Below, piece after piece: positions 45,534 to 53,515 of a stretch of 64,000 bases of DNA. The notes beneath the pieces are model-generated. The model worked only from the letters and a program-made list of their open reading frames with translations. It did no database searches and was not told where the DNA came from. Position 1 is the first letter of the stretch. Each line of letters starts with the position of its first letter. This stretch comes from Roseobacter sp. MH60115 (GTDB lineage: Bacteria; Pseudomonadota; Alphaproteobacteria; Rhodobacterales; Rhodobacteraceae), in the NCBI RefSeq assembly GCF_015644665.1, contig NZ_JADOBQ010000005.1, positions 248,001-312,000 of the forward strand. Reading direction: 5' to 3'. The position numbers were made by a program, and so were the translations under genes.

Positions 45534-47291
45534 TCAGAGCAAGAGCGGGAAGAAGATGACGAGCAGCCCGCCAAACAAGAAACCGGCGCGCAGGACAGCA
45601 GCGCGTGCGCCGATGAGGGCAAAAGAGATCAACGCCAGGCCGAGCCCGATCTGCACCGCTGCCAGGAACGCTTGGGTTGGTGCCGACTGCAGCCTGATCA
45701 GCGCAGGGTTTGCAATCATCGCCAGCGGGATGATGTAGAGGCCGAAGCCGAGGGTCATGGCCGTTAGCGCCACTTTCAGCCAGTTTTCCCCGATCATACC
45801 GGCCGCGATGAACACCGCGCCACAGACCGGTGGCGTGATGGTGGAGAGCAGCGCGAACCAGAACACAAAAAGATGCGCCTGCAGCGGCTCCAGCCCCAAC
45901 TGGATCAGCGCCGGTCCGGCAACCGATACGCAGATCACATAGGCTGCGGTGGTGGGGACTTCCATGCCGAGGATGAGGCAGGCGAGCGCCGTCAGCAGCA
46001 AGGCGGGCCATAACATGCCACCCGACCCCGAGAGGATCAGGGATGTGATCTTGACCCCCAGCCCGGTGATCGACAGGACGCCGATGATGATCGAGGCGCA
46101 GATGATGATGGCCGCAATCATCGATACCTGCCGTGCTGCATTCAGCGCCGAAGTTTCGATCCGGTCGCGTGTCTCCGGCCACGATCCCAAACCTTTCGTG
46201 TTGAAGAACAGCAGTAGAACGCTTGTGAGGATGGCGAGGCTGGCGGCGTATTGTGGCGTCACCTTGCTCCAGAACATGCCCACCAGCAGAACGGTGAAGG
46301 GCACGGCAAAGAACGCGGATGTAATGATCACATCCCGGGTCGAGGGCTGATCCTTTGCGTCGATGCCGGATAGGTTTTCCCGCGCGGCATAGGCATCGAC
46401 GCCCACCCAGACGGCCAGAAAGTAGAGCACCGCCGGGAGCAGCGCCGCCGCCATGATGGAGGTGTAGGACACGCCTGTCAGTTCGACCATGACAAAGGCG
46501 CCGGCACCCATCAGCGGGGGCATGATCTGCCCGCCGGAGGACGCCACGGCCTCGACTGCGGCGGCCAGCCGTTTGGGATATCCCAGGCGCGTCATCGCAG
46601 GCAGGGTGATCGCCCCGGTGGAGGCGACATTGGCGGAGGCGGACCCGGAGATCGATCCGAAAAAGGCGGAGGAGAGCACGGAGACTTTTGCCGCCCCGCC
46701 TTTGAGTCGACCAGCGGCGGCAGAGGCGACATTCATGAAGCCTTGCCCGGCCTCCCCGGCGTTCAGCACGGCGCCGAAAATCACAAAAATCGCGACCACG
46801 TTTACGGAGACGCCCGTCAGACTGCCCCAGATGCCGCCCTCGGCAATGGTCAGCGTGCCCAGAAAGCTGCGGAGCGGCGTGCCGGAATGGCCGAATTCGC
46901 CGGGGATGTACTGCCCGAACAGCCCGTAAAGCAGGGCGGTCAGCGCAACCATCGGCAGCGGCCAGCCAATCGCGCGCCGCGCGGCCTCAAGCACCACGAC
47001 CAAAAGGGTCACGGCGATGGCCATCTGAAAGGGGCTTTCCAGGAAACCGTATTGATCGGACAACGCGTCATGCGACCAGGCCACCCAAAGACACGCGCCA
47101 ACGCCCGCGACGGCGAGGGCTGCGCCGCTGAGGCGCGTCATGCGGGATTGCGCCCCAGCCAACAGGATCCACGGCAAGGCCAGCGCCAGGTGCAAAGGGC
47201 GGCTGACAAGGTTCGGCACCAGACCGGAAAAGATCAAGGCCAGATGAAAGGCAACCAGACCGAAGGCGGCGGCAAAGATGACGAAGCGCAT
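45534..47291 (-). CDS. TRAP transporter fused 4TM/12TM permease
   Basis: 585 residues with about fourteen to sixteen membrane segments, fusing the small DctQ-like and large DctM-like subunits. AFFGSISGSASANVASTGAITLPAM and SSGGQIMPPLMGAGAFVMVE are signature DctM blocks. Works with the TAXI binding protein encoded upstream on the same strand. AAGGG precedes ATG 47291. Confidence 0.93.
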   Translation of the reverse strand: MRFVIFAAAFGLVAFHLALIFSGLVPNLVSRPLHLALALPWILLAGAQSRMTRLSGAALAVAGVGACLWVAWSHDALSDQYGFLESPFQMAIAVTLLVVVLEAARRAIGWPLPMVALTALLYGLFGQYIPGEFGHSGTPLRSFLGTLTIAEGGIWGSLTGVSVNVVAIFVIFGAVLNAGEAGQGFMNVASAAAGRLKGGAAKVSVLSSAFFGSISGSASANVASTGAITLPAMTRLGYPKRLAAAVEAVASSGGQIMPPLMGAGAFVMVELTGVSYTSIMAAALLPAVLYFLAVWVGVDAYAARENLSGIDAKDQPSTRDVIITSAFFAVPFTVLLVGMFWSKVTPQYAASLAILTSVLLLFFNTKGLGSWPETRDRIETSALNAARQVSMIAAIIICASIIIGVLSITGLGVKITSLILSGSGGMLWPALLLTALACLILGMEVPTTAAYVICVSVAGPALIQLGLEPLQAHLFVFWFALLSTITPPVCGAVFIAAGMIGENWLKVALTAMTLGFGLYIIPLAMIANPALIRLQSAPTQAFLAAVQIGLGLALISFALIGARAAVLRAGFLFGGLLVIFFPLLL

Positions 47292-47387
47292 GACAAAACC
47301 CTTGTGGTCCAGGCGATTGGAGCCGCAGCACTAGAGAGGAAAGCCGCAGGTATGCCTGGGCTTTCGTGATGTTTCATCGCTGGTGGA

Positions 47388-48338
47388 TCACATTTGTGCG
47401 TCGGTGAGCGCGTATCCGATCTCTTTGTAATAGCGGATTGCGCCAGGGTGCAGCTTGCTGGTGATGCTGCTCATGAGACCTTCGTTCACGCCGTTCCACC
47501 AGGGCGCGGCTTCCCCCATCTTTTTGCGCTGCTCCCAGAAAGTTTTGGTCAGCTGATAGGCGACATCATCGCTCATCGCGGTGGTGGTAAAGGCAGCCAC
47601 GGGCAGGGAGGTCGTGGTGATGTCGCTGTCCTGACCGGCATAGGTGCCTGCCGGGATGACCAGCTTGGTGCGCTTTGTCTGGCCGATCTGATCCTCATCC
47701 AGCGACAGGACCGTCACGCCCGTGGTTGCTGCCGCTTCGATGACATTCGGGGCGGGGTAGGACCCGGCGGTCACGAAACCATCGATCTGGCCGTTTTTCA
47801 GGGCGGCCACGGCGTTGGAGAGCTCCACATCGGCAAGATCGACCTTTCCTTCAAGCCCGAAAAGCCCCAGATATTTTTCCCCTTCGCGCGCGCCAAAGGA
47901 TCCCTTGCCGAGCAGGATGGTCTTGCCCTCCAACCCGCTGAAATCGGTGACGCCACTGGCATCGGATACCACGAAATGCATCGTCAGCGACGGGATCGGG
48001 AACAGGGCGCGAATGGTGTCAAAGGCGGGGTCGCTCTTGCCGTCGAACATCGCCTTGCCCTGCTGCGCAAGACCGATCAACGCAGGGGGCGTTGTAAAGA
48101 CATAATCTGCACCGCGTGCGCGTACTTCCATCACATTCTGGACGGAGCCCTGGCTCTCCTCGACGGTCACGATCACACCGCCGTCCGTGCCCTCTTTCAT
48201 CGCCTCGGCGATCTGCACACCCATCTGATAGTAAGACGACGTCGATTTGGCAGACTTGTAGGTGACGCGTTCCTGTGCAGTCGCAAAGCTCGCCGTCACA
48301 GCGACAGCAGCGCTCAATAGAATGGTTGCTAGTTTCAT
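47388..48338 (-). CDS. TAXI family TRAP transporter substrate-binding protein
   Basis: 316 residues. Signal peptide (KLATILLSAAVAVTASFATA) and TAXI blocks KSTSSYYQMGVQIAEAM and ILLGKGSFGARE. The periplasmic receptor of the transport pair; GGGAGG precedes ATG 48338. The ligand is probably a carboxylate or amino acid from the catabolism genes nearby (inference). The 96 bp to the permease hold no gene. Confidence 0.93.
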   Translation of the reverse strand: MKLATILLSAAVAVTASFATAQERVTYKSAKSTSSYYQMGVQIAEAMKEGTDGGVIVTVEESQGSVQNVMEVRARGADYVFTTPPALIGLAQQGKAMFDGKSDPAFDTIRALFPIPSLTMHFVVSDASGVTDFSGLEGKTILLGKGSFGAREGEKYLGLFGLEGKVDLADVELSNAVAALKNGQIDGFVTAGSYPAPNVIEAAATTGVTVLSLDEDQIGQTKRTKLVIPAGTYAGQDSDITTTSLPVAAFTTTAMSDDVAYQLTKTFWEQRKKMGEAAPWWNGVNEGLMSSITSKLHPGAIRYYKEIGYALTDAQM

Positions 48339-48855
48339 GTCTTCCTCCCTTGGAATCTCGGTTCGCCCCTGACGTCCCGGGTATTGGGCTTCTTAAGGGA
48401 GCGCAGGTTTTGATTGTGTATTTGGTCGCATGTTCTGGAGAATGAAAACAACCTGCTTTTATCGTCTCGATCAGGACGGTTTTCCCGGCAGGCGTCACTT
48501 ACAGCATCATTTGCGCATCATGGTGCCTGAAGGCCGACAGGTGGGTATCCGATCCCTCTCCCTGCCGGATTTCAAGTTTTGCGATATGATCGGCATTGGC
48601 GTCAGACGAAAAAAAACAGCTTGCTTGGCAATCCATGGGCGAGGAGGCGCACCTCTGCGCGCGAAGACATCCAGCCTCCGGGTTCCGCGCGACCATGCCG
48701 TGGCAAGGCCAACAGCCACTCGGATGGGTGGATTCGGAGTACGGCCAGGGCAATGGAGACTTTTGGAAGGCCCAATCGGTGCGTTCAGCTAAGGGGGCTT
48801 CAGCCTGTTGGTCATCAAGAAATCCGCCGACCAAAGATTTTGCACGTTGAACGCT
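48339..48855. other. intergenic region without recognised gene
   Basis: About 520 bp. Several short open frames exist on both strands (for example 48430-48792 and 48596-48850) but none has a recognisable domain, a good ribosome site or family-like composition. The right part must hold the promoter of the zinc operon. A decayed gene cannot be excluded. Confidence 0.5.
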
Positions 48856-48873
48856 GTTACTTTATAAAATAAC
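48856..48873. promoter_or_regulatory. Zur box
   Basis: GTTACTTTATAAAATAAC: 16 of 18 positions fit a perfect palindrome and the GTTA-N10-TAAC frame resembles the alphaproteobacterial Zur site. It is 28 bp upstream of the Fur-family gene, where it would let zinc-bound Zur repress the operon. Confidence 0.75.
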
Positions 48874-48900
48874 AAATCTGCAAGTATCAGAGAGAGTGCC

Positions 48901-49287
48901 ATGCGAAAGCGAGCGACGGCGCGGCAGGACGACGTTCTCACCGTCTTGCGCGGGTGCGAAAAGCCCATGACCGCCTACCAGATCCTTGAGATGCTGCAGG
49001 CGGATGAGCCCGATATCGCGCCGCCGACGGTGTACCGGACATTGTCGGCCCTGACGGATCAGGGACGTGCGCACCGGCTCGAATCCATCAAGGCCTTCGT
49101 GCCCTGTCGCTGTGACCACGTCGAAAGCGTCCCGGTGCTTGCCATCTGCGAGGATTGCGGATCGGTCGAAGAGCATGACGGCAGCGCGCTCTTGCCAAAA
49201 TTGACGACGCTCACCGCATCCAGCGCTTTCCATGCGGATCGGCACATCGTTGAAATCCACGGGCGGTGCGGGATCTGCGCCGCTTGA
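48901..49287 (+). CDS. zur: Fur family zinc-uptake regulator Zur
   Basis: 128 residues. Winged helix PPTVYRTLSALTDQGRAHRLES is the Fur/Zur recognition part. C-terminal CEDC (83, 86) and CGIC (123, 126) form the structural zinc site and FHADRHIVEIHG supplies regulatory His. Short for a Zur, but the fold is complete. AGAGAG is the ribosome site. Autoregulation is suggested by the box upstream; the genes after it are in the same direction. Confidence 0.88.
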   Translation: MRKRATARQDDVLTVLRGCEKPMTAYQILEMLQADEPDIAPPTVYRTLSALTDQGRAHRLESIKAFVPCRCDHVESVPVLAICEDCGSVEEHDGSALLPKLTTLTASSAFHADRHIVEIHGRCGICAA

Positions 49288-49320
49288 TCAAATCTCAAAC
49301 CAGTAACAGCGGAGAATGAC

Positions 49321-49953
49321 ATGAAACGGACAGTCCTTTTGCTTCTTGCGGTCAATGCCGCGCCGGCTCTGGCAGAAGACACGCGCCAGCTTGATGCCCA
49401 TGAACACGGGGTCGGCGCTTTGAACATCGCCATTGACGGCACGACCGTCGCGATGGAGTTCCATGCGCCCGGCGCGGATATTGTCGGGTTCGAGTATGCT
49501 GCTGAAAGCGAGGCAGATCGCGCCGCCGTCGATGCGGCGGTCGCTACGCTTGCCCGCCCGCTCGACCTGTTCGTTCTGCCCGCAGCGGCGGCCTGTTCGG
49601 TGACACAGGCCAGTGCGGAGCTCGAAAGCGAACAGGCCCACGACGACCATGACCATCATGATCATGACGCGCATAAGGATCACGACGACCATGCGGAGCA
49701 TTCCGGCCATGAAGACCACGCGGAACACTCTGATCATGCAGAACACGCAGAAGAGGCCGGCCACTCGGAGTTCCACGCGGAATACACGCTGACCTGCGCT
49801 GATCCGACGGCGCTGACCGAGATCAGTTTTGCCTATTTCGACACGTTCGAGAATGCACGCGAACTTGAGGTGCAGGTCATCGCCGGTTCCGGCGCGCAAG
49901 CCTTTGAGGTCGAACGCGATGCTCCGACACTGGACCTGCGGAGCCTGTTTTGA
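49321..49953 (+). CDS. zrgA: ZrgA-like histidine-rich periplasmic zinc protein (DUF2796)
   Basis: 210 residues. Signal peptide (KRTVLLLLAVNAAPALAE), DUF2796 start LDAHEHGVGALNIAIDG, and a long His/Asp/Glu-rich stretch (about 105-150, many HDDH and HAEH units) likely to bind zinc. Homologous to ZrgA of Vibrio cholerae zinc uptake. It follows zur by 33 bp. The ATPase start overlaps its stop region. Confidence 0.88.
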   Translation: MKRTVLLLLAVNAAPALAEDTRQLDAHEHGVGALNIAIDGTTVAMEFHAPGADIVGFEYAAESEADRAAVDAAVATLARPLDLFVLPAAAACSVTQASAELESEQAHDDHDHHDHDAHKDHDDHAEHSGHEDHAEHSDHAEHAEEAGHSEFHAEYTLTCADPTALTEISFAYFDTFENARELEVQVIAGSGAQAFEVERDAPTLDLRSLF

Positions 49954-49954
49954 T

Positions 49955-50650
49955 GTGACGGATGCCATTCTGCACCTAGCGACTGTCGACTTTCGCTGGC
50001 GCGGGCGGTCGGGGTTTTCCGTGTCGGTGCCGAATTTCGCCATGAACGCAGGTGAAACAGTGCTGCTGCTGGGAGAAAGCGGATCGGGTAAATCCACGCT
50101 CCTGTCGCTGATCTGCGGCACAATGCTGCCAGATGCCGGGCGGGTAAACATTGCGGGCCAGGATTTGGCTACGCTTTCGAGCAGCGCGCGCGACAGGTTC
50201 CGGGCGGAGCAGATTGGTGTGATTTTTCAGCAATTCAACCTGCTGCCGTTTGGTACGGTGATCGACAACATCCTATTGCCACTCCGGTTCGCGCCCGAGC
50301 GACGCAAGCGGGCGGGGGATGCGAAGGCCACTGCGGCCACACTCTGCACCGCACTTGGCCTGCCCGGAGAGATTCTCGGCCACCGCGCCAACACGCTGAG
50401 CGTCGGGCAGCAGCAGCGCGTTGCGGTGGCACGGGCACTGATCGGTCAGCCGCCGCTGATCATCGCGGATGAGCCGACATCGGCGCTGGACGCAGACAGC
50501 CAGGCGGTGTTTTTGGATCTGCTGTTTCAGCAAACCGCGGCAAACAAGGCCTCGCTGCTGATGGTCAGCCATGATCCGCGTCTCGCAGATCGGTTTGATC
50601 GGGTGGTGCGGATGGAAGATATCGCCCGCATTCATCGGGTCGCTGCATGA
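49955..50650 (+). CDS. ABC transporter ATP-binding protein (MacB/LolD type)
   Basis: 231 residues. Walker A GESGSGKSTLL, Q-loop VIFQQFNLLP, signature LSVGQQQRVAVARAL (C-motif LSVGQ), Walker B LIIADEPTSALD and switch His in VSHDPRLADR. The GTG start at 49955 gives the usual length; the frame runs further into zrgA but is not needed. Couples with the FtsX permease next to it, so it should act on a periplasmic substrate. Confidence 0.9.
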   Translation: MTDAILHLATVDFRWRGRSGFSVSVPNFAMNAGETVLLLGESGSGKSTLLSLICGTMLPDAGRVNIAGQDLATLSSSARDRFRAEQIGVIFQQFNLLPFGTVIDNILLPLRFAPERRKRAGDAKATAATLCTALGLPGEILGHRANTLSVGQQQRVAVARALIGQPPLIIADEPTSALDADSQAVFLDLLFQQTAANKASLLMVSHDPRLADRFDRVVRMEDIARIHRVAA

Positions 50651-51897
50651 TCCTGCGACTGGCCATCGCCTCGCTCATCGCGCGGGCTCTGACCGTGGGC
50701 ATGACGATCCTTGCGATCGCCCTGTCCGTGGCCCTCTTTCTGGGTGTGGAAAAGGTGCGGACCGGCGCCAAGGAAAGCTTTGCCGATACGATCTCCGGCA
50801 CCGATCTGATCGTCGGGGCCCGGTCAGGGTCCGTGCAACTGCTGCTCTACTCGGTGTTCCGCATCGGCAACGCGACGAACAACGTGAGCTGGGAAAGCTA
50901 TCAGGACATCGCGACACGTCCGGATGTAGAGTGGATCGTGCCGATCTCGCTGGGCGACAGTCACCGGCAGTTCCGGGTAATGGGCACGACGCGCGCCTTT
51001 TTTGACCACTACAAGTACCGTCAGGGCAGATCGCTGGAGACAGCGGACGGCGTCATCATGGACGACCTTTTTGATACGGTCATCGGCGCCGATGTGGCGA
51101 CAACCTTGGGCTACAGCGTCGGTGATCCCATCGTGGTTGCGCATGGTCTTGCCTCCTTCTCCGAGCACAAGAACCAGCCTTTCCGCATCTCCGGTATCCT
51201 CGCCAAAACCGGCACGCCGGTTGACCGCACAGTGATTGTCAGCATGGAAGCGATTGAGGCCATTCATGTGGATTGGCGCAGCGGCGCGCAGATCCCCGGT
51301 CAGGTCACCCCGGTCGATGTCATCCGGCAAATGGAGCTGACGCCCAAGGCCATTACGGCCGCACTTGTGGGGGTCGAAAGCCCGCTGCAGACCTTTGCCC
51401 TGCAACGGGCGATCAACGAATACCGACAGGAACCGCTGCTGGCTGTGCTGCCGGGCGTGGCTCTGCAGGAGCTATGGGGGATCGTCGGCATTGCCGAAAC
51501 CGCCTTGCTCGCAGTCTCTGCGATGGTGGTGGTCACGGCGTTGATCGGCATGATGGCGACGATCTTTTCCAGCCTGAACGAACGCCGCCGCGAGATGGCG
51601 ATTTTCCGGGCGATGGGCGCGCGGCCCACAACGATCCTGGGGTTGCTGGTGCTGGAGGCGATGCTGATGGCGGCCCTTGGCGCGCTCCTTGGTCTTGCGC
51701 TGCTCTACGCGGGTCTGAGCGTCGCGCAACCGATGATCGACAGCGCCTTTGGGCTGTGGCTGCCCGTTACCGCGCCGTCATTGCAGGAGCTATGGGTGAT
51801 ACTGGCGGTTGTCGGTGCTGGCGCGATTGTGAGCATGGTCCCGGCCCTGCGCGCCTACCGCATGTCGCTGGCAGATGGTATGTTGGTGAGAACGTAA
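50647..51897 (+). CDS. FtsX-like ABC permease
   Basis: 416 residues, MacB-type permease: an N-terminal membrane helix, a large extracytoplasmic domain (about 40-270) and three C-terminal helices in the FtsX domain (LLAVSAMVVVTALIGMMATIF, LNERRREMAIFRAMGARP). The ATG overlaps the ATPase stop by 4 bp. MacB-type units usually do mechanical work in the periplasm and do not pump across the membrane. Confidence 0.9.
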   Translation: MILRLAIASLIARALTVGMTILAIALSVALFLGVEKVRTGAKESFADTISGTDLIVGARSGSVQLLLYSVFRIGNATNNVSWESYQDIATRPDVEWIVPISLGDSHRQFRVMGTTRAFFDHYKYRQGRSLETADGVIMDDLFDTVIGADVATTLGYSVGDPIVVAHGLASFSEHKNQPFRISGILAKTGTPVDRTVIVSMEAIEAIHVDWRSGAQIPGQVTPVDVIRQMELTPKAITAALVGVESPLQTFALQRAINEYRQEPLLAVLPGVALQELWGIVGIAETALLAVSAMVVVTALIGMMATIFSSLNERRREMAIFRAMGARPTTILGLLVLEAMLMAALGALLGLALLYAGLSVAQPMIDSAFGLWLPVTAPSLQELWVILAVVGAGAIVSMVPALRAYRMSLADGMLVRT

Positions 51898-51916
51898 CGC
51901 ATGAAGTGAGGTCGAA

Positions 51917-52417
51917 ATGCTGAGCCGCAGGTCTGCCCTTACCCTTTTTTCGGCGTCTGCCCTTGTGCCGACATCGGCGGTTGCCGCCGCACCCAGAGAG
52001 GTGATGTGGGATGATCTGATCCCGCCCGGCACGCCTTATTCCGAGATCATCGGCGAGGGGGAAATAGACGAGGTCAACGATACGTGGAACCCGATCTACG
52101 ACGCCAATGCGACCAAGCTGAACGAGACATTGAATGGGGCTTACGTGCGGATGCCGGGCTACATCATCCCGCTTGATTTCAACTCCAAGGGCGTGAAGGA
52201 TTTCATCCTGGTGCCCTATGTCGGCGCCTGTATCCACACGCCGCCACCGCCGGCCAATCAATTGGTGATGGTCAATGCCGACAGCTATTGGCCGGGGAAC
52301 CAGCTTTGGGACGCGGTCTGGGTGACAGGCACCATGCACACGCAATTGCAATCCACCGAGTTGGGGCAGACCGGCTATGCCATCCTGGCTGACGAGATGG
52401 AGGCTTACGAATGGTGA
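51917..52417 (+). CDS. DUF3299 periplasmic protein
   Basis: 166 residues with a Tat-like signal (SRRSALTLFSASALVP). DUF3299 core: GAYVRMPGYIIPLDF, FILVPYVGACIHTPPPPANQ. One Cys (in GACIH) next to a His could bind a metal. Encoded after the FtsX permease in a probable zinc operon; it ends overlapping the second DUF3299 gene by 7 bp. Confidence 0.85.
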   Translation: MLSRRSALTLFSASALVPTSAVAAAPREVMWDDLIPPGTPYSEIIGEGEIDEVNDTWNPIYDANATKLNETLNGAYVRMPGYIIPLDFNSKGVKDFILVPYVGACIHTPPPPANQLVMVNADSYWPGNQLWDAVWVTGTMHTQLQSTELGQTGYAILADEMEAYEW

Positions 52418-52920
52418 GCCGCCTGCTTCAAAGGCGCAGCGTCCTTGCGGGTCTCGCAGCCGGTCTCTGCCTGCCGCGGGCTGGGATGGCTGAGGATTTC
52501 GTTGATCTGGACTGGGTTGACCTGCTGCCCGAGAATGAGACAAGCATTCCGACTTTCCTGCGCGGCATCGTGGATCATGACGCAGCACCCCTTGCCAGCC
52601 AACAACCCGCCTCCAGCGGGGTCAGAACCGATTGGAATGGTCAGATCGTCCGTATTCCTGGGTTCATGGTGCCCATCGAACACCGCGGAACTGGTGTCGT
52701 GGCCTTCATCCTGGTGCCCTATGTCGGGGCCTGCGTGCATGTGCCGCCACCGCCCGCCAATCAACTGGTGTTCGTCACCACGCAGCAGCCGTATGAAAGC
52801 GCAGGTCTCTTCGAGGCCATCAACGTGACCGGCATGTTCGGCGTGTCGGCCGTTTCAACGCAACTGGCTGAAATCGGCTACGCGCTGTCGGCGGACAAGA
52901 TTGAGCCGTTTCGGGCATAG
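52411..52920 (+). CDS. DUF3299 periplasmic protein (second copy)
   Basis: 169 residues, signal peptide with QRRSVLAGLAAGLCLPRAGMA. The core GFMVPIEHRGTGVVAFILVPYVGACVHVPPPP matches the first copy, including Cys-x-His, but the rest has diverged. ATG 52411 lies within the first gene. Paralogous pairs suggest two substrates or a heteromeric complex. Last gene of the zinc-linked run. Confidence 0.84.
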   Translation: MVSRLLQRRSVLAGLAAGLCLPRAGMAEDFVDLDWVDLLPENETSIPTFLRGIVDHDAAPLASQQPASSGVRTDWNGQIVRIPGFMVPIEHRGTGVVAFILVPYVGACVHVPPPPANQLVFVTTQQPYESAGLFEAINVTGMFGVSAVSTQLAEIGYALSADKIEPFRA

Positions 52921-52936
52921 TCGTACGCGCGCGGCG

Positions 52937-53515
52937 CTAAGCACACCTCAGCGTTTGCCCAACTACTCCGTTGCCGAGGGTCTCTGATCTCACCTGCGCA
53001 AGTGCCACCGGTTTGGTCCCTGGCTCGAACAGCCTTTTGCCTGTGCCCACCACGACGGGAAACGTCCATAGTCGAAACTCATCGATCAGGTCATTGGCCA
53101 GCAGCGTCTGGATCAACTGCGCGCTGCCATGCACCTGCAAAAGCGGGCCGTCTTGGCGCTTCAGTTCCCGAATGGTCTGCACAACATCGCCCCTGATCGG
53201 ATGGGAATTCTGCCAGGTCAGAGGGTCAGGGCGTGACGTCACGACATGCTTTTGCGCCTGGTTCAGCTGGTCCGACTGATCCGATTTGGGCGCGTTTGGC
53301 CAATGCCCGGCGAAGATGTCATAGGTTTTTCGACCGAAGAGGATGTCGTAGGGTGCCGTCATGGCGGTCGCTGCAACGCGCGGCATGGTCTCTTCCCAAA
53401 AGGGTGCGGCCCAGCCGCCATGTTCAAAGCCATTGTCGGGATCTTCTTCAGCCATGCTCGGGGACTGCATGACCCCGTCGAGCGTTACGAAAGTCAAGAT
53501 TGCAAGATCACGCAT
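52937..53515 (-). CDS. dihydrofolate reductase-family protein (RibD C-terminal domain)
   Basis: 192 residues. The RibD_C fold opens LAILTFVTLDGVMQSP, with PYDILFGRKTYDIFAGHWP and a C-terminal LWTFPVVVGTGKRLF segment. It is a general NAD(P)H reductase family; the substrate is unknown. AGGAG fits ATG 53515, whereas the 27 upstream codons are not conserved. No partner gene. Confidence 0.88.
   Translation of the reverse strand: MRDLAILTFVTLDGVMQSPSMAEEDPDNGFEHGGWAAPFWEETMPRVAATAMTAPYDILFGRKTYDIFAGHWPNAPKSDQSDQLNQAQKHVVTSRPDPLTWQNSHPIRGDVVQTIRELKRQDGPLLQVHGSAQLIQTLLANDLIDEFRLWTFPVVVGTGKRLFEPGTKPVALAQVRSETLGNGVVGQTLRCA

Follow-up and report, generated by a model that had tools for sequence, protein, structure and literature searches.

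A six-gene operon of Roseobacter sp. MH60115 raises a double question, namely what an ABC unit of the MacB type can contribute to zinc supply and which repressor decides when it is made. The operon lies in the window analysed here (the whole stretch of 64,000 nucleotides from NZ_JADOBQ010000005.1, part of contig C15 of a 4.76 Mb genome that is 99.96% complete), and it is close to certain that this conserved operon belongs to the known Zrg type, which serves in zinc starvation. Its first gene is, as read from the sequence, the second zur of the genome and comes with a private DNA switch of its own; we call its product Zur2, a label of ours for the zrg-linked Zur copy. Zinc-linked control of the operon by Zur2 appears very likely, and most likely the repressor is this Zur-like protein itself, acting on a 20-bp operator that has diverged, and not, or not only, the ordinary Zur. 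As to function, we give about an even chance to an ATP-driven hand-off of zinc within the periplasm, which would feed another importer and be induced by zinc starvation.

We regard the gene set, the pairing of operator with Zur2, the histidine residues and the predicted fold class as established by the sequence. Six open reading frames (ORFs) without internal stops follow each other on the plus strand in the order zur2, zrgA, ATPase, permease, DUF3299 a and DUF3299 b (Table 1), with intergenic distances of 33, 1, -4, 19 and -7 nt, and both ORFs and family matches agree with the initial annotation, which had named a zur, ZrgA, an ABC ATPase, an FtsX permease and twin DUF3299 proteins with small gaps or overlaps. 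The zur2 product scores 34.6 bits against FUR (PF01475, cut-off 23.1) and ZrgA 183 bits against PF10986 (cut-off 27.4) as well as 215.9 bits against the NCBIfam equivalog NF047873 (cut-off 185); among PDB entries, ZrgA finds 7ahw (PA4063, E 2.4e-25) and 8ezw ("zinc-binding protein", E 1.1e-15), the latter presumably V. cholerae ZrgA. The ATPase matches ABC_tran with 115 bits, its closest curated models being LolD, DevA and FtsE, each under its own cut-off; the permease, encoded by a separate gene unlike in the fused MacB arrangement, matches FtsX (59 bits), MacB_PCD (54 bits) and no other family, and the DUF3299 copies score 131 and 128 bits (cut-off 22). The operon permease gave no match to the ABC-3 permease family of ZnuB (PF00950), whose four matches in the genome lie on other contigs. 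A likeness to the ZrgABCDE system of V. cholerae had been proposed, and it extends to the ZrgA equivalog, the permease, the ATPase and DUF3299 but not to zrgD, there being no space between the six ORFs for this small single-helix protein. As ZrgD is said to be missing in V. fischeri and Photobacterium profundum too (PMC9817125), we do not count it as defining for Zrg. A sigma-70 scan of positions 48700-53100 gave no promoter-like match, and the same region holds 2 terminator-like matches against 3.0 expected. In the accessible passages of the open-licence literature we found no description of a second zur, of DUF3299 or of zrg in roseobacters.

The host genome contains four Fur-family matches. 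Its ordinary Zur (171 aa, at 684 kb of C12) heads a zur-znuC-znuB unit, with znuA, zevA/zevB-like and COG0523 genes running divergently from it (names that are our reading of the sequences, except for the ABC-3 match, which is a family call), and this cluster carries the ordinary 15-bp boxes TGTTATGACATAACA and TGTGATTGTATAACA. Zur2, with 128 aa, shares 31-35% identity with ordinary Zur over the matched part, and H58, C69, C71, H73, C83, C86, E91, H92, H115, H120, C123 and C126 are invariant among 13 aligned Zur2 sequences. When the ordinary Zur was used as a query, matches were obtained in 39/39 zrg genomes, the best one being 55-100% identical in 38 and only 30% in G010, and comparison of coordinates places the ordinary zur no more than about 2 kb from a gene for an ABC-3 permease in all 19 Zur2 genomes. 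The cut-off of the NCBIfam Zur equivalog (167 bits) was discarded as an uninformative test of Zur identity, since ordinary Zur (112 bits) falls short of it as well as Zur2 (82 bits). When the Zur2 alignment was scanned against the genomes of GTDB, 86 relatives were obtained, of which the best 80 were kept. In 79 of these 80, zrgA follows zur2, the remaining contig stopping 64 bp past it, and two DUF3299 genes follow in 62, one in 15 and none in 3 (cut contigs included). By record titles the relatives belong mostly to Rhodobacterales genera or families, with one Robiginitomaculum and one alphaproteobacterial metagenome-assembled genome, and an identical Zur2 is present in "Uncultured Roseobacter sp. 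isolate 269".

The Zur-like box placed at 48856-48873 by the initial annotation is real and palindrome-like, but it spans 20 bp (48855-48874) and differs from the ordinary Zur box. The predicted operator would overlap a -10-like TATAAAAT, which is our own reading, the promoter scan having given none there. With up to 3 mismatches allowed, the 20-mer has a single site in the whole 4.76 Mb genome, with 0 mismatches, and the same 20-mer read backwards as a control has one site as well. Across 50 zrg loci of Rhodobacterales (L014, which is that of the window, and L075-L123), the 20-mer TGTTAYTTTATAAARTAACA, at up to 3 mismatches and with a TATAAAA core, was present in 19/19 Zur2 loci and 0/31 Zur2-less ones, a contrast that is descriptive because the core was derived from the Zur2 loci themselves; its start lies 45-56 bp before the zur2 start codon. 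Dropping the core requirement gives 19/19 against 8/31, and in 100 shuffles of each of the 50 upstream regions the 20-mer never appeared at 3 mismatches or fewer. When 59 whole genomes were scanned at the same threshold, all 19 Zur2 genomes had the 20-mer at the zur2 promoter (0-3 mismatches), with extra sites in G003 and G147 only, both at 3 mismatches; 11 of the 40 other genomes match it, all at 2-3 mismatches, and in 7 of these the match lies at the zrg promoter, so that matches at 0-1 mismatch are confined to zur2 promoters. The backward control has one site each in 9/59 genomes, the host among them. Upstream of zur2 in the best 80 relatives, the 20-mer (up to 3 mismatches) occurs in 78, the other two contigs having 43 and 2 bp there. 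The presence of the 20-mer at the operon is more than chance. Elsewhere, L012:2165-2211 (G000 C14:76664-76710) holds two Zur-box-like palindromes upstream of the gene of a 160-aa secreted protein with no NCBIfam match.

It seems rather unlikely to us that the ordinary Zur, alone or jointly, regulates the operon with Zur2 as a minor or differently tuned co-repressor, but part of the data would suit this arrangement. The ordinary 15-mer (up to 2 mismatches) occurs in 19/31 Zur2-less zrg loci, where shuffled regions give 0.4/31, and one further Zur2-less locus, L095, lies within a zur-znuCB unit; moreover, the 20-mer of 18/19 Zur2 loci itself contains a near-15-mer within 2 mismatches, and the 8 Zur2-less loci that match the 20-mer do so with the core lacking. 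Against it, the cored 20-mer follows Zur2 through all 19 loci and none of the 31 others, and sites with 0-1 mismatch stand solely at zur2 promoters, the 11 matching Zur2-less genomes having 2-3. An ordinary 15-bp box is not present upstream of zur2 in the window, where the best 15-mer has 2 mismatches of 12, versus none for the 20-mer. The earlier claim of a Zur-controlled operon is upheld as regards zinc-linked regulation, with the correction that the zur in question is the genome's second and likely the operon's own repressor, rather than (only) the ordinary Zur. On the permease tree, the distribution of Zur2 over the 50 loci takes no fewer than 10 changes, of which well-supported forks force only 2, these being quick trees with many open forks and long branches, and in L122 a decayed 87-aa zur2 remnant, with the operator not found, precedes a single-DUF3299 zrg operon. 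We infer that zur2 was repeatedly lost and zrg rewired to ordinary Zur boxes in relatives.

Published expression data bear on the same control. In a mutant of Phaeobacter piscinae S26 lacking tropodithietic acid (TDA), the transcript of a "FurB homologue", OL67_003754, was lower, as were those of ZinT (the most changed gene), ZnuA (OL67_003813) and ZnuC (OL67_003815) (PMC9942592). Plasmid pS26_248 carries ZnuA-like OL67_RS18930, ZnuC-like RS18940 and the zrg Fur-family gene RS18635, and because 59 genes separate the latter from znuA in both numberings, OL67_003754 is most likely zur2; the zur2 operator of this strain has one mismatch, at -45. In the passages of PMC9942592 that deal with it, the FurB homologue is not tied to zrg by the authors and other zrg genes go unmentioned. 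TDA loss and the zinc genes are probably linked by the chelation of metal by TDA, against which stands the metabolome of the same paper, where no chelation was seen. The co-decrease of FurB, zinT, znuA and znuC, along with the co-occurrence of operator and Zur2, speaks for a Zrg operon regulated by its own Zur. In S26, zur-znu and zur2-zrg share one plasmid (NZ_CP080276.1, 248 kb), and zrgB relatives are often met on plasmids of Phaeobacter (56 records). Phaeobacter inhibens 2.10 has the operon too, on pPGA2_239.

Turning to function, the predicted model of the permease (pLDDT 90.4) matches 5xu1 (Z 25.2), LolE (Z 22.1), HrtB (Z 20.0), MacB (Z 18.7) and YtrF (Z 18.2) over its full length, which assigns it a predicted fold of the type VII / MacB superfamily. 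Four of the five histidines of the window permease, His106, His166, His174 and His207, all lie between the first long helix of the model (14-48) and the next (269-312), and they are conserved throughout the family (Table 1), the exceptions at 106 being W in L240, F in L230 and Y in L231. No conserved His or Cys was found in the membrane helices in the 85-sequence alignment, which comprises matches above 500 bits (Rhodobacterales) or 330 bits (phylum, so without L225). Fold and helices agree with the doubt about plain import by a MacB-type permease that the initial annotation had raised; that proteins of this type are unlikely to make a zinc importer has been argued before for the P. aeruginosa homologue (PMC11481552). 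None of the four histidines is present in five control MacB_PCD ORFs, which have Asp193 and Glu316 in 5/5 and Glu337 in 4/5, but the controls are informative mainly for 106 and 174 because all have gaps at 207 and most at 166. These five were kept from 26 loci, which included zrg loci, and come from G640 and G598 only, two being probably one gene; unalignable ORFs under 15 bits, one from the host genome for example, had been left out.

A second family of operons adds to this. Among 21 DUF3299 loci fetched that have no ZrgA nearby, 13 (L132, L135-L144, L148 and L149, with L145, cut by a contig end, left out) hold a complete ATPase-permease-DUF3299 operon, and their permeases form a single branch with support of 99. 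In all 13, an insert that follows His207 immediately contains 3 to 33 His; it is mostly rich in His, Asp and Glu and poorest in His in L132, and the corresponding stretch of 85/85 zrg-type permeases has 0 or 1 His. A His-rich catcher is therefore built into the permease where ZrgA is missing, as if the insert might replace ZrgA in cis, and it may be regarded as the best clue for metal delivery to the periplasmic domain of the permease. No Zur-type box (at most one half-site mismatch) was found between -300 bp and 60 bp inside the ATPase ORF in any of the 13, the promoter of L135-L137 possibly lying further upstream than this region. Directly upstream of the operon, L135-L137 have a HlyD/CusB-like adaptor gene, which favours export for the ZrgA-less branch. 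Next to DUF3299, in zrg and ZrgA-less operons alike, a secreted protein that we call c7 is encoded in L075, L087, L092, L130, L138, L144, L262, L263, L302 and L307; it has 350-400 aa (e.g. L075:6987-8204), begins with CAF or CSF past the signal in four sequences, and had a Pfam match in 0/3 and an NCBIfam match in 0/1 tested. In genus g22 (L124-L129), a ZrgA-family gene occurs by itself next to genes for imelysin and a di-haem oxidoreductase, with no ZrgBC within the stretch.

Zrg genes also adjoin zinc importer genes of different kinds. In L232, znuC, znuB, znuA, zrgA, zrgC, zrgB and DUF3299 are contiguous in one direction (a ZnuA-ZrgA fusion was ruled out there, the reading frames overlapping), in L095 zrgACB comes after zur-znuCB, and in genomes without ABC-3 a ZIP transporter gene adjoins zrgA in L217 and L227 (same strand) and in L242 (divergent). 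One Zrg unit paired with different inner-membrane importers is as expected of a periplasmic helper. Near zrg, 7/39 phylum loci have COG0523 genes and 5/39 Zur, plus one Zur2-like in L239; ZrgA occurs without ZrgB in 3/39 (L215, L226 and L229), and TonB-dependent receptor genes are close to zrgA in L237 and L239. ABC-3 is clear in 24, weak only in 2 and missing in 10 of 36 phylum genomes with ZrgABC, the figures for 36 compared genomes without ZrgA being 29, 3 and 4, and several of the genomes with no or a weak match are less than 90% complete. On these counts of missing and weak ABC-3, zrg as a feeder of ZnuABC only was rejected as a general rule. Within Rhodobacterales the comparison does not discriminate, because ABC-3 is present in 59/59 genomes, zrg or no zrg.

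DUF3299 a finds 4hsp (PA4066) both by sequence (E 4.4e-25) and by predicted fold (Z 18.9), a fold termed OB-like (PMC8561739); other structure matches (Z of 8.4 or less) were dismissed as within the range of common arrangements. Invariant among 63 sequences are Trp31, Gly81, Pro100, Gly103, Cys105, His107, Pro109-112, Asn114, Gln115, Gly138 and Tyr154. In the DUF3299 tree, likewise a quick one with many open forks and long branches, 32/32 "first" copies and 10 single ones make up one branch (99), 32/32 "second" copies and 7 single ones the other (93); as both old paralogue branches include single copies, either copy can be lost. An RR pair lies within the first 60 residues of 79/80 Rhodobacterales zrg members and is accompanied by a hydrophobic run in 70/80, most misses being ORFs with the start set too early, and the combination is found in 6/37 other phylum DUF3299, some of them probably false, and in 0/13 from ZrgA-less loci (here with L145 and without L132). 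From these signals, export of the roseobacter DUF3299 proteins by twin-arginine translocation (Tat) is likely. Twin DUF3299 genes without zrgABC also lie near an HTH_21 (transposase-like) gene at L133:5528-6525, perhaps remains of a lost zrg operon.

Taken as a whole, the hand-off would proceed as follows. In zinc-replete cells, Zur2-Zn would occupy the 20-bp operator over the promoter and keep its own operon off, and at zinc shortage it would leave the operator and the operon would be turned on. Periplasmic zinc would then be caught by the His-rich loop of ZrgA, which would dock on the permease at its periplasmic domain and pass the metal to His106, His166, His174 and His207 there, and the ATPase pair would power a MacB/Lol-like movement (mechanotransmission) that releases zinc to a partner. 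The Tat-exported OB-fold DUF3299 pair, with its Cys-x-His loop, could act as relay or lid, and zinc would enter the cytoplasm through an ordinary importer, which would be ZnuABC in this genome and ZIP in some others, and not via ZrgBC. How zinc is transferred, what DUF3299 does and which way zinc moves are points that we infer. The hand-off is favoured because of the type VII fold, the four periplasmic histidines, the ZrgA-less insert, the importer gene joins and the proximity of COG0523, and the zinc loading or chaperoning role proposed earlier would fit the comparative evidence. More broadly, and tentatively, at somewhat less than an even chance, Zrg may put the type VII ABC fold to a new use, as an ATP-driven periplasmic zinc shuttle working through a four-His site with any importer, with a sister family that has the catcher built in and a private roseobacter Zur that was lost or rewired.

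Several observations weigh against the hand-off. PA4066 has been reported without evident zinc binding, and the P. aeruginosa data favour cobalt-pyochelin export (PMC11481552); ABC-3 is missing in 10/36 zrg genomes, weak only in 2 more, and not commoner with zrg (24/36) than without (29/36); seven ABC-3-less zrg genomes showed no importer among just 20 neighbour proteins scanned from 12 loci; and the control permeases are gapped at 207 (5/5) and at 166 (4/5). In V. cholerae, zrgA matters once znuA is gone, being required for normal growth and for survival at low zinc (PMC9820375), for which import by ZrgBC would be the simplest explanation. That zinc is imported by ZrgBC itself, ZrgA being a solute-binding protein of a new kind, would also suit the contribution of V. 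parahaemolyticus ZrgA to zinc acquisition (PMC9817125) and the zrg genomes without ABC-3, but we hold it to be unlikely in view of the MacB/Lol-type fold, of membrane helices devoid of conserved His or Cys, and of the five loci in which zrg is physically joined to importer genes. These joins also tell against a MacB-type exporter that would expel periplasmic metal or metal-chelate from the cell. Such an exporter, to which we give a low probability, is the P. aeruginosa reading, derived from the rise in cellular cobalt, dependent on pyochelin, on deletion of PA4065 (PMC11481552), and both the fold match to MacB and the adaptor upstream of three ZrgA-less operons speak for it; beside zrg-type operons, however, a search with one query protein found no adaptor relative, two weak matches lying several kb upstream (L276 and L318).

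Table 1. Features of the zur2-zrg operon in window coordinates
Feature	Position	Strand	Remarks
Putative Zur2 operator, palindrome-like	48855..48874	.	20 bp, TGTTACTTTATAAAATAACA, one base pair off a perfect palindrome
zur2	48901..49287	+	128-aa Fur-family regulator, the genome's second Zur-like one; His/Cys ligands conserved
zrgA	49321..49953	+	predicted periplasmic His-rich zinc-binding protein
ZrgA His-rich loop	49630..49764	+	about residues 104-148, read from sequence
zrgC-type ATPase	49955..50650	+	GTG start; ATP-binding and signature motifs intact
zrgB-type permease	50647..51897	+	predicted type VII / MacB superfamily fold
His106 codon	50962..50964	+	periplasmic; kept in 82/85 zrg-type and 13/13 ZrgA-less permeases
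His166 codon	51142..51144	+	periplasmic; 85/85 zrg-type, 13/13 ZrgA-less permeases
His174 codon	51166..51168	+	periplasmic; 85/85 zrg-type, 13/13 ZrgA-less permeases
His207 codon	51265..51267	+	periplasmic; 85/85 and 13/13; insert of ZrgA-less permeases starts after it
DUF3299 copy a (zrgE-like)	51917..52417	+	predicted OB fold, Tat-like signal
CxHxPPPPxNQ loop of DUF3299 a	52229..52261	+	C, H, P, N and Q invariant in 63 aligned sequences
DUF3299 copy b	52411..52920	+	old paralogue of copy a

On the opposite strand, a TAXI-type TRAP transporter (45534-48338), in which permease and binding protein are fused, adjoins the operon and is apparently unrelated to it.

The literature on Zrg is split between zinc import in Vibrio (PMC9820375, PMC9817125) and cobalt-chelate export in Pseudomonas (PMC11481552), and the third answer, a periplasmic hand-off, is made directly testable by four named histidines, a family with ZrgA in the permease and the joins to ZnuABC and ZIP. 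A second Zur with a private operator, set against relatives with ordinary boxes, also offers a neat natural example of how regulation is rewired in marine bacteria. New here are Zur2 and its operator, the mapping of FurB to zur2, the four histidines, the insert of the ZrgA-less permeases and the importer joins.

Like ZrgABCDE of V. cholerae and V. parahaemolyticus, the operon combines ZrgA, a MacB-type permease, a separate ATPase and DUF3299 (ZrgE) under low-zinc control; unlike them it lacks zrgD and has a pair of DUF3299 paralogues bearing Tat-like signals, its own zur as the first gene and a diverged operator. PA4063-PA4066 of Pseudomonas aeruginosa comprises the same four protein families, PA4066 being the structure matched by DUF3299 a at Z 18.9, but this four-gene operon includes neither a zur nor a second DUF3299, and the cobalt-pyochelin export proposed for it is also treated in PMC13083405, where a PA4065 mutant had no colonisation defect in wax-moth larvae. 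With the type VII systems LolCDE, MacAB-TolC, HrtBA and FtsEX it would share the permease fold and probably the mechanical use of ATP, from which it is set apart by four conserved periplasmic histidines, the partner ZrgA and six genes with no MacA or LolA among them. The Zur of Paracoccus denitrificans, of the same order, is likewise a Fur-family zinc repressor, and the ordinary zur-znu cluster of our host has the same divergent layout; for P. denitrificans a 15-bp palindrome is described, and Zur bound such promoters in electrophoretic mobility shift assays (PMC5387054), whereas Zur2 pairs with an operator of 20 bp.

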